Source: Aeromicrobium sp.
GTDB taxonomy: Bacteria > Actinomycetota > Actinomycetes > Propionibacteriales > Nocardioidaceae
Direction of reading: 5' to 3'
DNA length: 44,816 bases
NCBI GenBank assembly: GCA_025965435.1
Contig: JAOPWZ010000014.1
Coordinates: 1 to 44,816, forward strand
A model generated the notes under the pieces. It was not told the origin of the DNA. It made no database searches and saw only the letters and a program-made list of their open reading frames with translations. The position numbers were made by a program, and so were the translations under genes. Shown here piece by piece: positions 5,141-25,001 of the stretch (its first letter is position 1; every line of letters starts with the position of its first letter).

Positions 5141-7485
<2,345 letters not shown>

Positions 7486-10838: not shown

Positions 10839-13550
10839 TCAGGGGGTGAGGAAGGTCTGGAGCATGTCGTGGCCGCGGGAGGTCAGGATCGACTCGGGGT
10901 GCATCTGGACGCCCTCCACCGGATGGGTGCGGTGCCGCACGCCCATGACGATGCCGGACGCGGTGTGGGCCGTCGCCTCGAGCTCGGGAGGCAGGGACCC
11001 GGCGTCGACGACGAGCGAGTGGTAGCGAGCGCAGACCAGGGGCGTGGGCAGGCCCGTGTAGACCCCTCGACCGTCGTGATGGATCAGCGACGGCTTGCCG
11101 TGCACGATCTCGGGCGCCCGGACGACTTTCGCGCCGTACACCTCGGCGATCACCTGATGACCCAGGCACACCCCGAGGGTGGGCGTCGTCGGGCCCAGCC
11201 GCGCGATCGCCTCCCGGCTGATGCCGGCATCGGAGGGGGCACCCGGACCTGGCGACACGATCAGATGGGTGAAGTCACCCCGCTGGCGGGCGGCGACGAG
11301 CTCGTCGACCGTCACGGCGTCGTTGCGCACGACCTGCGCGGAGGCTCCGAGCTCGCCGACGTACTGCGCCAGGTTGTAGACGAACGAGTCGTAGTTGTCG
11401 ATGAACAGGACCTTCGCGCCCCGAGCTCCCCTCGCCCCTTTCGCTCCTTTCGCTTGTCGAAAAGACGAGGTCCCTCCTTTCGACGGGCTCAAGGAGCGGG
11501 TTGGGCTCAAGGAGCGGGAAGGGCTCAGCTCGTCACGGAGCCAGGCGGTCGTGCGGCCGGCGGGCCACTCCCCCACCCCCTCGCACGACAGGATCGGGAC
11601 GACACCGCGCAGCGCGTTGGTCGCGAAGACCTCGGTGGCGGACGCCAGGTCGTCGAGAGTGAGGCGCCGCTGGAACACCGGCACCCCCGCTGCCCGCAGG
11701 ATCTCGACGACGCGAGCGCGGGCCGTGCCGGGCAGGATGCGTCCGTCGGTCGCCGGGGTGAGCACGGCATCGTCGTGGACGACGAACAGGTTGGCACGGG
11801 TGGTCTCGAGCACCGAGCCGTCGTCGGCCACCAGCACCAGATCGTGGTCGGGTGGTCCGTCGTGCGCCACGGCGCTGCGATCGGCCCACTTGTGCTGGCC
11901 GAGACCGCCGGGAACCGCCCGCAGGCTCGTGGTCCAGGCCTCCCCGACGGGATCGAGCTCGCGCGTCGCGATGGTGACGCCGACGTCGTGGCCGGACGGC
12001 ACGGCGTCGATGCGCAGGCGATGGCGACCCGCGAGACCTGCCGCCCGTCGCACCACGGCCTCGTCGAGACCCGCCCGGATCGTGGTGCCGTAGACGGCCC
12101 GCACGCTGGCGTCGAGCCGCGCCAGGTGGGCGTCGAGGTCGATGGCGTGGCCGTCGACCACCAGGAGCGTGTCGTAGACACCCAGTCGCTCGTCGACCCT
12201 CGGCGCCGGCGGCGGCTCGGCGGCCGGCACGACCAGCTGATCAGGAACGACGACGCCGGCCACCAGGTCGAGCGTCCCACCGATCGCCTCGATCAGCGGC
12301 CGGGCCTTGACCAGGCACTCGGCGTACTCGCCGTCGGGCGTCGAGTCGGCGACGATGCCACCACCCACGCCCAGCCAGATCGTGTCGCCGACGATCTCGA
12401 ACGTCCTGATCACGACATTGAGCTCGAGCCCCGCGGCGGGACTGACATGGCCGATCGCGCCGGTGTAGGCCTCACGGCCCGTCGCCTCCAGCGTGTTGAT
12501 GAGCTCCATGGCCCGGACCTTCGGTGCGCCGGTGACCGAGCCCGGAGGGAAGGTCGCCCGCAGCAGGTCCGAGTCGCGCACGCCGCGCCCGAGGTGGGCC
12601 ACGACGTCGGACACGAGATGCCACACCGCGTGACGCTCGGCGCGCGTGACGGCCGGGACGCGCACCGAACCGGGCACGCTGACGCGTCCGAGGTCGTTGC
12701 GCATCAGGTCGACGATAATGATGTTCTCGGAGCGGTTCTTCGCCGACGCGACGAGCTCGTCGGGGTCGGAGTCAAGGGGCGCGGTGCCCTTGATGGGCGA
12801 GCTGAGCACCTCGTCACCGGTGCGGCGCAGGAACAGCTCGGGCGACAGGCTCACCAGGGCGCCGTCGGGGCTGTCGACGAAGGCCGCGTAGGCCGGGTGC
12901 AGCCGGTCGACGCCGGCGCAGAAGACGTCGAGCGGGTCGCCCGAGAACGGCGCCTCCAGCCGGACACACAGATTGGCCTGAAAGATGTCGCCCGCGGCGA
13001 TGTGCTCCAGGACGGCGGCCACGGCGGTGCGGTGCTCCTCGGGTGACGGCGTCATCTCGAACACCCCGACGTCGTACGCCAGCGGCCTGGGTGCCGGCTG
13101 CGACAGGACGGCCAGGATGCGCTCGTCGCGCTGCGGATCGTGGGTCAGCGACTCGAGCCACCAGGTGCCGCCGCTCAGGCGCAGCACGTGGTCGTAGAAC
13201 GCGATCCGGTGATCGGGCTGCTCGACGACACGGCGCGGTGCGGGCGGCAGCCGCTCGACCAGCCGTCCCAGCTGGTAGCCCCACGCACCGATCCAGCCAC
13301 CCCCGAATCCCGGGACGTCGGACGAAAGGGGCTCGACGTCGATGCCGCCGAACGGGTCGCCGCCGAGCACCTCGGCGGGGTCGAACGCGATCAGCGCCTC
13401 CCCGTGGTGCCAGGCGCCGATCAGGGCGACCAGACGATCGCGGCCCCGAAATCGGCGCAGGACGTCGAGCGGATCGGCCTCGAGATCGAGCCGGACACGC
13501 GTGAGCTCAGTCGGAGCGGGACTCGTCAATGACCTTCGCGCCCAGCTCAC
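10839..13550 (-). CDS. pabB: Trifunctional aminodeoxychorismate synthase/lyase (PabB-PabC-PabA fusion)
   Basis: A 903-residue fusion that should make p-aminobenzoate for folate from chorismate and glutamine. Residues 1 to about 435 are PabB: PIKGTA carries K254, the lysine that separates PabB from TrpE (which has alanine), followed by SENIIIVDLMRNDLGRV and PPGSVTGAPK. Residues about 436-672 are a class IV PLP lyase (PabC) with probable PLP lysine K554. Residues 713-903 are a class I glutamine amidotransferase (PabA) with GVCLGHQ (Cys795) and MHPES (His884, Glu886). The linker, about 674-712, is made of REP-like repeats. The start is uncertain: the GTG at 13550 overlaps dnaX by 44 bp, and a TTG at 13527-13529 is also possible. 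A C-terminal PabA is the unusual part. Confidence 0.9.
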   Translation of the reverse strand: MSWARRSLTSPAPTELTRVRLDLEADPLDVLRRFRGRDRLVALIGAWHHGEALIAFDPAEVLGGDPFGGIDVEPLSSDVPGFGGGWIGAWGYQLGRLVERLPPAPRRVVEQPDHRIAFYDHVLRLSGGTWWLESLTHDPQRDERILAVLSQPAPRPLAYDVGVFEMTPSPEEHRTAVAAVLEHIAAGDIFQANLCVRLEAPFSGDPLDVFCAGVDRLHPAYAAFVDSPDGALVSLSPELFLRRTGDEVLSSPIKGTAPLDSDPDELVASAKNRSENIIIVDLMRNDLGRVSVPGSVRVPAVTRAERHAVWHLVSDVVAHLGRGVRDSDLLRATFPPGSVTGAPKVRAMELINTLEATGREAYTGAIGHVSPAAGLELNVVIRTFEIVGDTIWLGVGGGIVADSTPDGEYAECLVKARPLIEAIGGTLDLVAGVVVPDQLVVPAAEPPPAPRVDERLGVYDTLLVVDGHAIDLDAHLARLDASVRAVYGTTIRAGLDEAVVRRAAGLAGRHRLRIDAVPSGHDVGVTIATRELDPVGEAWTTSLRAVPGGLGQHKWADRSAVAHDGPPDHDLVLVADDGSVLETTRANLFVVHDDAVLTPATDGRILPGTARARVVEILRAAGVPVFQRRLTLDDLASATEVFATNALRGVVPILSCEGVGEWPAGRTTAWLRDELSPSRSLSPTRSLSPSKGGTSSFRQAKGAKGARGARGAKVLFIDNYDSFVYNLAQYVGELGASAQVVRNDAVTVDELVAARQRGDFTHLIVSPGPGAPSDAGISREAIARLGPTTPTLGVCLGHQVIAEVYGAKVVRAPEIVHGKPSLIHHDGRGVYTGLPTPLVCARYHSLVVDAGSLPPELEATAHTASGIVMGVRHRTHPVEGVQMHPESILTSRGHDMLQTFLTP
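11450..11530. repeat. REP-like elements (family A) forming the PabC-PabA linker
   Basis: One good copy (CCTTTCGACGGGCTCAAGGAGCGGG, 11476-11500), a truncated tandem copy (GGGCTCAAGGAGCGGG, 11503-11518), a shorter stub at 11521-11527, and an inverted stub around CTTGTCGAAAAGACG (11453-11467). All are read in frame on the minus strand as Ser/Pro/Lys-rich peptide containing SLSPSK and SSFRQAK. The neighbouring stretch AKGAKGARGARGA is a low-complexity run of the same insertion. Confidence 0.8.
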
Positions 13551-15486
13551 GGCTGAGCAGCGCCTCCGGATCGAGATCCTCGACCTCGATCACCGGGTCG
13601 TTGCGATCGGCCGATGCATCGGGATCCTCGCGGGTCTTGGGCGTGTGGGTCTCGCGGAGGGCCTCGCGCACCGAGTCGGGCACGGCGACCGGCGGAGCCG
13701 TCTGGACGACCGGAGGGCGGGCGGCCGGTGGTGCGTGGTCGCCGTAGTCCTCGACGCCCGGACGGGCGCCGGGATCGACGATCGCCTCGATGCGCCAGGT
13801 CACGCCGAGCACCTCGTTGAGGGCCCGCTGGACGTACTCGTCGGAGCCGCTGCTGAGGAACGAGTCACGCGCTCCGGTGTTGATCAGCGCGATCGTGAGG
13901 ACCTTGCCGTCCAGGGCCATGACCTGCGCGTTCTGGCTCAGCATGATCCAGGCGAAGCGGCGCATGTCCCGGATCTTGTCGAGGATCTCCGGCCACAGGC
14001 GCCGGACGTCGGAGATCGTCAGCTGCCCGGGCGCCGCTTCGGTGGTTGAGCTGGTCGAAGGGACGTCCGGCACCCTTTCGACAGGCTCAAGGGACGGGGC
14101 CGGCCTTTCGACAGGCTCAAGGGGCGGGGCCGACGTCGTCCAGGGTGCGGCCTGAGCGGGCTCGCTCCTTGAGCTTGTCGAAAGGACGTCCGGCTCGGGC
14201 TCGTTCCCTGAGCTCGTCGAAGGGACCTCCGGCACCCTTTCGACAGGCTCAAGGGGCGGGGTCAGCCTCTCAAGGGGCGGGGCCGGAGCAGCAACGGCAG
14301 GTGCCGGCGCACCGCCGTCCATCGAGAGCCGGCGCTCGACCCGGTCGAGGCGCGCCTGGAAGCCCTGTGTGGAGTTGTCGGCCCCAGGCACGAGGATGCG
14401 GGCGCACATGAGCTCGAGCAGGAGCCGCGGCGCGGTGGCCCCACGGAACTCCATCAGCGCCGCGTTGACGATGTCGGCCGCGCGGGTCAGCTCGGAGGGG
14501 CCGAAGCCGTTGGACTGGATCACGAGCCGTTCGGCCCGGTCGCCGGGGACGTCGAGCAGACCCTTGTCGAGCGCATCGGGGACCGCAGCGACGATCACCA
14601 GGTCGCGCAGCCGCTGCAGGAGGTCCTCGGCGAAGCGGCGGGGGTCCTGCCCGGTCTCGATGACCTTGTCGACGACGCCGAAGACCGTGGAGCCGTCGCT
14701 CGCGGCGAAGGCGTCGATCGCCTCGTCGAGCAGCGAGTCGGGCGTGTAGCCGAGCAGCTGCACCGCGAGATCGTAGGTGACGCCATCAGGACCGGCACCG
14801 CCGAGCAGCTGGTCGAGCACGCTGAGCGTGTCTCGCACGGAGCCCTGCCCGGCCCGGACGACCAGCGGCAGCGCGGTGGCGGCGAGCTCGACGCCTTCCG
14901 CCCGGCACAGCTGCATCAGGTAGTCACCGAGCGACTTGGGCGGGACCAGGCGGAACGGGTAGTGGTGCGTGCGCGAGCGGATCGTGCCGATGACCTTGTC
15001 GGGCTCGGTCGTCGCGAAGATGAACTTCAGGTGCGGCGGCGGCTCCTCGACCAGCTTGAGCAGCGCGTTGAAGCCCTGCGGCGAGACCATGTGGGCCTCG
15101 TCGATGATGTAGACCTTGTAGCGGCTGCTGACCGGGGCGAAGAAGGCCCGCTCGCGCAGGTCGCGGGCGTCGTCGACGCCGCCGTGGCTGGCCGCGTCGA
15201 TCTCGATGACGTCGATGCTGCCGGGCCCGCCGCGAGCGAGATCACGGCAGCTCTGGCACTCACCGCACGGATCGGAGATCGGCGCCTTCTCGCAGTTCAG
15301 GGCGCGCGCCAGGATGCGGGCGCTGGTGGTCTTGCCGCAGCCGCGCGGACCCGAGAACAGGTAGGCGTGGTTGACCTTGTTGGCGGCGAGCGCGTGCCGC
15401 AACGGGTCGGTGACGTGCTCCTGACCGATCACCTCGGCGAACGTCTCCGGCCGGTAGCGGCGATACAGCGCGAGGGGGGCATCCAC
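13507..15486 (-). CDS. dnaX: DNA polymerase III subunit gamma/tau
   Basis: A 659-residue clamp-loader ATPase. The AAA+ module shows Walker A GPRGCGKTT (46-54), a zinc-binding set C65, C74, C77, C80, Walker B IIDEAH (D129, E130) and the FIFATTEPDKVIGTIRSR segment with the SRH arginine finger. Domain III ends near residue 385. Residues about 395-485 are a Pro/Glu/Ser-rich linker built almost wholly of translated REP-like repeats, and a tau-like C-terminal domain (about 490-600) follows with an acidic tail. I see no A-rich slippery site, so a frameshifted gamma form is unlikely. The start is GTG at 15484-15486, 87 bp after the response regulator gene. Confidence 0.95.
   Translation of the reverse strand: MDAPLALYRRYRPETFAEVIGQEHVTDPLRHALAANKVNHAYLFSGPRGCGKTTSARILARALNCEKAPISDPCGECQSCRDLARGGPGSIDVIEIDAASHGGVDDARDLRERAFFAPVSSRYKVYIIDEAHMVSPQGFNALLKLVEEPPPHLKFIFATTEPDKVIGTIRSRTHHYPFRLVPPKSLGDYLMQLCRAEGVELAATALPLVVRAGQGSVRDTLSVLDQLLGGAGPDGVTYDLAVQLLGYTPDSLLDEAIDAFAASDGSTVFGVVDKVIETGQDPRRFAEDLLQRLRDLVIVAAVPDALDKGLLDVPGDRAERLVIQSNGFGPSELTRAADIVNAALMEFRGATAPRLLLELMCARILVPGADNSTQGFQARLDRVERRLSMDGGAPAPAVAAPAPPLERLTPPLEPVERVPEVPSTSSGNEPEPDVLSTSSRSEPAQAAPWTTSAPPLEPVERPAPSLEPVERVPDVPSTSSTTEAAPGQLTISDVRRLWPEILDKIRDMRRFAWIMLSQNAQVMALDGKVLTIALINTGARDSFLSSGSDEYVQRALNEVLGVTWRIEAIVDPGARPGVEDYGDHAPPAARPPVVQTAPPVAVPDSVREALRETHTPKTREDPDASADRNDPVIEVEDLDPEALLSRELGAKVIDESRSD
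14041..14283. repeat. Six to seven REP-like elements (family A) inside dnaX
   Basis: Forward copies with core CCTTTCGACAGGCTCAAGG are at 14073-14100, 14104-14130 and 14235-14261, with a truncated one at 14267-14283. Reverse copies (CTTGAGCTTGTCGAAAGG type) are at 14044-14065, 14163-14188 and 14202-14227. The first reverse copy begins GGTTGAG, like the repeat family at 36.9 kb, so the two families may be related. On the dnaX strand forward copies read PLEPVER and reverse copies read V(P/L)STSS; the frame is kept throughout. Confidence 0.92.
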
Positions 15487-24421: not shown

Positions 24422-25001
24422 TCACCAGCGGTCGTGGACGTCCTCGGCCCAGCCCATGAGCCCGTCGAAGGACACCGGCCCCGGCCGTGGTCGAGGACGG
24501 CCCACGACTCCCCCGCCGGCACGGCGGACGTCACGCCCGCCATGGTCACGGTGCCCGACGCCGGCCGGGCGACGTCCTTGACCGTGTACTGGAAGCGTCT
24601 GTCGCTCCATGGCACGACCACCGCGAGGCACTCGTGCCCCGGTGGCTTCGCGGCCACGACGTCGAACGAGGCACCCGGGATCGTCGCGCGCAGCCTGGTG
24701 CCGCCGTCGATCTCGTCGACGTCGATCGACAGCCTGCCGTGGCGCGCACGCGCGGGTCCGTCGCCGAGCGAGGCCGGGAGCGTGGCCGACCGGCCCAGCA
24801 CACCCGTGGCGCCGTGGTGCACCGCCTCCCCCGTCTCACGATCGAGCACCCACACCTCGTGCACCGCGGCATAGTCCAGCGACGAGACCGTGAGCGCGAG
24901 GTGTCGACCAGCGGCCGACGGGCCCACCCGACAGCGGCACGGTTCAGCCGGCCATCGGGTCCGGTCAGCGACACCGGTGTGGTGAGCTCCTACTCGATCA
25001 C
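24422..25001 (-). pseudogene. Decayed DUF2804-family gene
   Basis: Pieces of a DUF2804 protein are recognisable in order but in different frames. The N terminus (VIE, then an in-frame TAG at 24990-24992, then ELTTPVSLTGPDGRLNRAAVGWARRPLVDT) is in one frame. After a loss of roughly 30 residues the frame changes and continues with HLALTVSSLDYAAVHEVWVLD, PPGHECLAVVVPWSDRRFQYT and ESWAVLDHGRGR. The expected C-terminal third after GRGRxP is missing; instead an unrelated short tail ends near 24422, just before the tRNA-Ser terminator. The family matches are from memory of conserved blocks and the lesions are seen directly. It lies 12 bp after the PAP2 gene. Confidence 0.75.

Follow-up and report, generated by a model that had tools for sequence, protein, structure and literature searches.

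The dnaX locus and its repeats

The window, a stretch of 44,816 nucleotides that forms contig 62 of an Aeromicrobium sp. assembly (2.15 Mb in 148 contigs, 58.8% complete), carries dnaX, encoding the gamma/tau subunit of the clamp loader, next to a pab fusion gene, with asd further along the same strand (Table 1). The closest named relatives of this DnaX belong to Aeromicrobium species. In many Aeromicrobium genomes the pab fusion is the neighbour of dnaX; here, assuming that translation begins at the first start codon, it overlaps the end of dnaX by about 44 bp.

Pfam matches in DnaX stop at residue 364, and the linker that holds the repeats starts after domain III; its disorder was judged solely from composition and the absence of Pfam matches. 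Within this linker the exact core TGAGCNNGTCGAA occurs six times, three times in each orientation and always in frame, and a half copy adjoins these six cores, so that the count of “six to seven” given by a sequence-only reading of the window was right. As that reading had also stated, both orientations are present and the dnaX frame is unbroken. Forward copies are read as (P/S)LEPVER and reversed copies as V(P/L)STSS. Searched across the whole window at up to three mismatches, the 19-mer gave five matches, four of them in dnaX and the fifth in pab, whereas 100 shuffles gave 0.01 on average. An exact core at 24457–24469 of the window lies inside an ORF, has no paired arms, and was taken as chance. 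Rfam returned five matches for positions 13500–14500, every one below the gathering score; these fits to animal miRNA and trypanosome snoRNA models were set aside as chance fits to inverted repeats.

Table 1. Genes and element copies in the window (core, location of the element's core; reading, peptide encoded in the host gene).
Feature	Position	Strand	Core	Reading or description	Basis
asd	5141..6190	-
Decayed copy in asd	6164..6186	+	6171-6183	PRQAEG; two core mismatches
pab fusion	10839..13550	-		903 aa; chorismate binding, aminotransferase IV, GATase	Pfam
Decayed copy in pab, reversed relative to gene	11442..11464	+	11449-11461	FRQAKG; two core mismatches
Element copy in pab	11476..11498	-	11479-11491 (exact)	SLSPSKG; aa 687 (Aminotran_4 ends at 655, GATase starts at 716)
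dnaX	13507..15486	-		Gamma/tau clamp-loader subunit, 659 aa; DNA_pol3_delta2, DNAX_ATPase_lid, DNA_pol3_gamma3	Pfam
Element copy, reversed relative to dnaX	14040..14062	+	14047	VPSTSS; weak arms (one pair)
Element copy, dnaX sense	14074..14096	-	14077	SLEPVER
Element copy, dnaX sense	14104..14126	-	14107	PLEPVER
Element copy, reversed relative to dnaX	14163..14185	+	14170	VLSTSS
Element copy, reversed relative to dnaX	14202..14224	+	14209	VPSTSS
Element copy, dnaX sense	14236..14258	-	14239	PLEPVER
Half copy (seventh, fragment)	about 14266..14280	-		PLERL	Read directly

The pab site proposed from the letters alone is real, and consists of one exact core and one decayed copy. A copy also exists at the proposed asd site, at about residues 3–7 near the N-terminus, in decayed form. 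Taken together, the dnaX, pab and asd copies use four different frames within the window (EPVE, STSS, SLSK and RQAQ), as had been claimed.

Structure of the element

Alignment of 64 copies from the same genome gives a full element of ~23 bp, 5'-CGYYCSTTGAGCYTGTCGAAASG-3', built from a one-sided CGYY tag (mostly CGCC or CGCT), three to four outer base pairs, and the fixed core TTGAGCYTGTCGAA. The arms covary: among the 64 copies the pair at -2/+2 is C-G 49 times and G-C 10 times, and among 39 copies drawn from six stretches of another Aeromicrobium genome, G034, it is C-G 19 times and G-C 17 times. The predicted DNA hairpin is weak, at about -3 to -6 kcal/mol when flanks are included and about 0 for the bare 19-mer, with a loop of 11 nt in the predicted folds that have stem-forming flanks and ~4 paired positions in the alignment.

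Five of the six reading frames of the element are free of stop codons, a count that holds as first reported. The first reading had suggested that this would let the element spread into coding DNA. The count itself is ordinary, because five or six open frames are found in 64% of shuffled 19-mers and in 85% of random 19-mers of 70% GC; openness as a special adaptation for entering coding DNA was thus ruled out by the shuffles.

Distribution within and between genomes

A search of the whole genome at up to three mismatches found 70 sites and none for a reversed control pattern, identifying a dispersed REP-like element, in agreement with what the repeats in dnaX had suggested. Copies cluster in arrays and in pairs of opposite orientation.

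Among 49 Aeromicrobium genomes (numbered here, with the present one as G000) the distribution is patchy, from 0 to 96 copies. Exact matches to TTGAGCYTGTCGAA number 96 in G035, 87 in G034, 78 in G069, 66 in G023, 62 in G020, 48 in G000, 39 in G026, 32 in G008, 25 in G062, 24 in G033 and 9 in G010; the remaining genomes have at most five, and 31 of the 49 have none. G015 has 56 matches to TTCGACARGCTCA. In a class-wide sample, 68 of 296 genomes had a match, mostly one each, with 32 exact copies in G071, which belongs to another family outside the order.

Several cores in G010 and G062 sit in ~105-bp units around DUF222-HNH endonuclease genes, and both genomes were nevertheless kept in the copy counts. 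At these genes (L260, 1074–3151, and L259, 731–2420), the flanking cores lie about 105 bp apart and are inverted between the two sides, perhaps constituting a second nuclease-palindrome arrangement.

Copies inside genes

The genome of the window holds 72 cores, of which the 64 lying in the stretches examined were classified and the other eight left out. Twenty-five copies lie in recognised genes and 36 in intergenic or uncertain positions; the three that lack paired arms were treated as chance. The 25 distinct copies are spread over 14 genes, one of which (L159) has no Pfam match. The copy assigned to residue 88 of NuoG and the NuoF copy are one piece of DNA, counted once to give the total of 25. 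That total also excludes two further copies, one at the beginning of an MFS frame (L178), the other within an unnamed frame (L190). Read in the host frame, the 25 copies encode STSS 12 times, EPVE seven times, SLSK four times and RQAQ twice, with neither the FDxLK frame nor the closed frame in use. This bias is weak when each gene and frame is counted once (exact p = 0.03; p = 0.006 for reversed copies alone). Since about 14 genes between them read this one core in four frames, the element is REP-like DNA and no old protein linker.

In nine of the 14 genes, a raw, uncontrolled fraction, the copies lie outside domains, in linkers or C-terminal tails. Internal sites are the DnaX linker, the stretch of Pab between the aminotransferase and GATase domains, a stretch between two AtuA domains, and NuoG after its molybdopterin domain; C-terminal sites are found in NuoF, NuoI, CarA, a luciferase-like protein and an unnamed frame. 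The preference is only a tendency, because the other five genes hold copies inside a Pfam span (MFS, MnmA, a second luciferase-like protein, Luc1, and CobN) or at a domain edge (a Lactamase_B protein). Three NADH dehydrogenase genes carry copies (the nuoF end, nuoG and the nuoI end; L187 and L163), and the copies in NuoG, NuoI and CobN border low-complexity peptide runs resembling expansions of the element.

DnaX and Pab linkers across orthologues

Comparison of relatives, which had been proposed as a check for gain and loss, revealed that the presence of copies differs among orthologous DnaX and Pab linkers. The exact core occurs in six of 36 fully delimited DnaX linkers of the genus, with only mismatched cores in G033 and G020. 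Among these complete linkers, a copy is present in seven of 10 copy-rich genomes (here those with at least 24 copies, plus G015) versus one of 26 others (p = 1e-4). No DnaX copy was found in three genomes that bear the nuclease described below (G034, G035 and G023). Pab loci were recovered from 30 of the 49 genomes, and 29 could be delimited (G029 was excluded); of these, two contain copies, G000 and G035, both nuclease-bearing, and their linkers are the two longest, at 65 and 70 aa against 41–63 aa.

The element had been described as a mobile linker that adds peptide to proteins. Its dispersal, its patchiness, and its presence or absence in orthologous linkers all agree with mobility, but the element does not simply add peptide, because copy-bearing DnaX linkers are not longer: the median length is 136 aa with copies (n = 8) versus 145 aa without (n = 28; p = 0.06). 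Lengthening of DnaX by the copies was rejected, as the difference runs the opposite way.

According to the sequence-only reading, copies conserved in distant genera, or a lack of copies elsewhere in the genome, would point to an old linker. The exact core was found in none of 80 named DnaX loci (seven titled Aeromicrobium, and some cut by contig ends), and the genome holds many other copies. An explanation purely at the level of protein, in which Pro/Glu/Ser-rich peptides are under selection and no mobile DNA is involved, is highly improbable, for although DnaX linkers across the genus are rich in Pro, Ala and Glu and this DnaX reads its six copies in just two of the five open frames, some 14 genes use one DNA core in both orientations and in four frames, most copies lie outside recognised genes, and the exact core is missing from the 80 named DnaX loci; the intergenic copies and the four-frame use are considered to have refuted it already.

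A GIY-YIG nuclease between inverted arrays

REP elements of other bacteria may be mobilised by RAYT transposases; here the RAYT family, PF01797, was absent from all 49 Aeromicrobium genomes searched (that of the window being only 58.8% complete), with matches in five of 14 control genomes, and RAYT was dropped as the driver. The genome of the window has a 98-aa GIY-YIG gene between two arrays of the repeat (PF01541, E = 1.5e-15). NCBIfam gave no name for this nuclease, and by sequence its nearest solved chains are UPF0213 proteins.

Close orthologues (84–100% identical, that of G000 included) are found in five of the 49 genomes, G000, G034, G023, G035 and G026, and in every case arrays of the element lie in inverted orientation on the two sides of the gene, with one additional copy of odd orientation in G023. 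They are present in five of the seven genomes with at least 39 copies versus none of the 42 others (Fisher p = 1.1e-5, uncorrected for relatedness, so that the test overcounts because genomes share ancestry). The unit occupies two genomic sites, one in G000 and G034 and the other in G023, G035 and G026. At the first, the neighbouring genes directly adjoin without the nuclease in G029, G012 and G069. Syntenic with the second, G020 has a relic of the nuclease gene bearing a stop, flanked by one intact and one decayed copy.

The arrangement recurs in another family. G037 has 139 matches to TTCGACARGCTCA and none to TTGAGCYTGTCGAA, the TTGAGC form; its nuclease is 55% identical, with seven copies of a CTGAGC variant, CCCTGAGC..GTCGAAGGG, on one side and two inverted copies on the other. 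The independent cases may number two in the genus, corresponding to the two sites, plus G037.

Several copy-rich genomes have no close intact nuclease. These include G069 (78 copies), whose homologues are only 61% and 49% identical, the former surrounded by other repeats, G008 (32), G033 (24; a 49% homologue only), G062 (25), G010 and G015. G071 gave no match to the nuclease, and its sole PF01541 match belongs to a frame of 691 aa. Such genomes require the assumption of loss (as in G020), of action in trans, or of another driver.

Related nuclease loci

The comparison was widened to 55 loci in the genus and the class that match the nuclease, some of them near-identical relatives; L205, which has a short flank, was kept, and L310 was left out as the same place as L231. 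An inverted-repeat score between the flanks of at least 18 was reached at 33 of the 55 loci versus nine of 250 swapped pairs, in which the two flanks came from different loci, and none of 244 random positions, and a score of at least 16 at 39 loci versus 13 swapped pairs and three random positions. The swapped-flank control is the fairer, because the random positions came from the dnaX and pab stretches and are mostly coding. Each of the residues Y5, Y15, G17, R25 and E62 is conserved in 53 or more of the 55 loci, and this set includes the catalytic Tyr, Arg and Glu of GIY-YIG nucleases.

The repeats differ between nucleases and, judged by eye, many have half sites of the type TTGAG..TCGAA or TCGAGTA..TATCGAGA. 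Around the Aeromicrobium GIY-YIG loci L204, L206 and L209–L214, at 57–64% identity, mostly quite different palindromes are seen, for example GGTGGTCGAGTAG..GTATCGAGACCAC or GGTGGTTGAGG..CTCGAAACCACC.

Origin and spread of the element

The repeats in dnaX are copies of a lineage-specific REP-like family that has probably been spread by the small, array-enclosed GIY-YIG nuclease, and this candidate driver is what the present analysis adds. The nuclease and its arrays would most likely correspond to the RAYT “REPtron”, with a nuclease in place of the transposase. The association of nuclease and arrays does not, by itself, establish cleavage or transposition; cleavage, copying (transposition), translation of the copies and their neutrality are inferred. 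The nuclease may recognise the element as a single strand during replication or repair and cut at or beside it, after which repair would copy the element to new places. Of the insertions into coding DNA, those that keep the frame and land in a tolerant stretch, in many cases a linker or C-terminal tail, would survive. The hypervariable linker of DnaX, between domain III and the C-terminal part of tau, would be one such site, with the copies probably replacing older Pro/Ala/Glu-rich sequence and causing no extension. Weighing against this reading are the copy-rich genomes that lack a close intact nuclease, the copy-free DnaX of nuclease-bearing G034, G035 and G023, the small number of independent cases, the weak hairpins, the modest frame bias, and the five genes whose copies lie within a Pfam domain or at its edge.

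Alternatively, a REP-like element could be spread by recombination, gene conversion or another transposase, with the GIY-YIG gene a passenger, or a gene that uses the arrays as terminators. This is rather unlikely, but has several observations in its favour: the copy-rich genomes that have no close intact nuclease, G071 among them, the cores that flank DUF222-HNH genes instead in G010 and G062, and the fact that PF01797 was the sole transposase family searched. Against a passenger stand the same sandwich in all five Aeromicrobium genomes at two sites, its repetition in G037, and the other palindromes that surround other GIY-YIG genes. Selection across the genome for a host binding site, serving a nucleoid, segregation or repair protein and tolerated in genes, is very unlikely: a conserved unpaired core with a one-sided tag, and dispersed copies in both orientations, would suit such a site, but the exact TTGAGCYTGTCGAA is missing from 31 of 49 genomes of the genus, unlike a housekeeping site, and copies are grouped in arrays and opposite pairs.

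Spread by the GIY-YIG nuclease could extend beyond this genus. It is possible, and suggested here tentatively, that a nuclease of ~100 residues inside inverted arrays is a general selfish unit of actinobacteria, dispersing its own palindrome without a transposase, with each nuclease lineage having its own repeat family based on TTGAG..TCGAA-like half sites. Such units might also supply the driver that is missing for tagged REPs without a transposase elsewhere, and their translated copies might be kept as linker modules, including in the replicative clamp loader.

A route from selfish palindrome to protein is illustrated by the copies in dnaX, pab, nuo and other genes, which occupy any open frame that is tolerated. 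This could explain recurring STSS, EPVE and SLSKG peptides in predicted proteins, which should not be read as conserved protein motifs.

Comparison with known systems

In a literature search, the core sequences appeared in no paper, and no paper joined REP/RAYT with Actinobacteria or GIY-YIG with REP. In general, REP elements are imperfect palindromes of 20–40 bp, present in many copies, often in opposite pairs, and mainly extragenic, a description that this repeat fits.

Di Nocera et al. (2013, PMC3733652) describe the CGTC-tagged REPs as short palindromes that occur dispersed and in pairs, carry an unpaired terminal tag and have no known dedicated transposase. Intragenic, in-frame REPs, also in replication genes, are already described there, as is the suggestion that flexible linkers tolerate insertions; the paper's main text nowhere uses the terms “Actinobacteria”, “dnaX” or “tau”. 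The present repeat is similar in its unpaired tag at one end, its dispersed and paired copies, and its in-frame positions in genes (PMC3733652). It differs, on the same description, in the tag (CGYY, with CGTC only a minority form, where the superfamily has CGTC), in the stem (about 4 bp with no initial AT, compared to 8–9 bp with AT at the first two positions and a loop of 4–5), and in having a nuclease gene inside inverted arrays. Tagged REPs lacking RAYTs are reported to have no dedicated transposase (PMC3733652). The array-enclosed nuclease, with different palindromes around other GIY-YIG genes, offers a testable driver candidate. Rickettsia palindromic elements (RPE), as characterised in PMC3733652, likewise lie in frame in many protein genes, including those of replication and repair, and resemble this repeat in their in-frame insertions at several loci; here the element is short, GC-rich, actinobacterial and read in four frames, the likeness being one of description.

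With the GTAG REP/RAYT systems the present one shares high-copy palindromes, some of which flank a gene for a nuclease or transposase. It has no GTAG tag and no PF01797 in the 49 genomes, and a GIY-YIG protein takes the place of the HUH tyrosine transposase. The Ssn proteins of Neisseria are site-specific, single-strand GIY-YIG nucleases that are associated with dispersed palindromic NTS repeats. They would be the nearest precedent for this candidate nuclease, which is likewise a small GIY-YIG domain protein in which Tyr, Arg and Glu are kept, putatively paired with a dispersed palindrome, given the arrays around its gene and the link with copy number. The repeat and phylum are different in Aeromicrobium, where arrays enclose the nuclease gene and copies of the palindrome lie in frame within host proteins.
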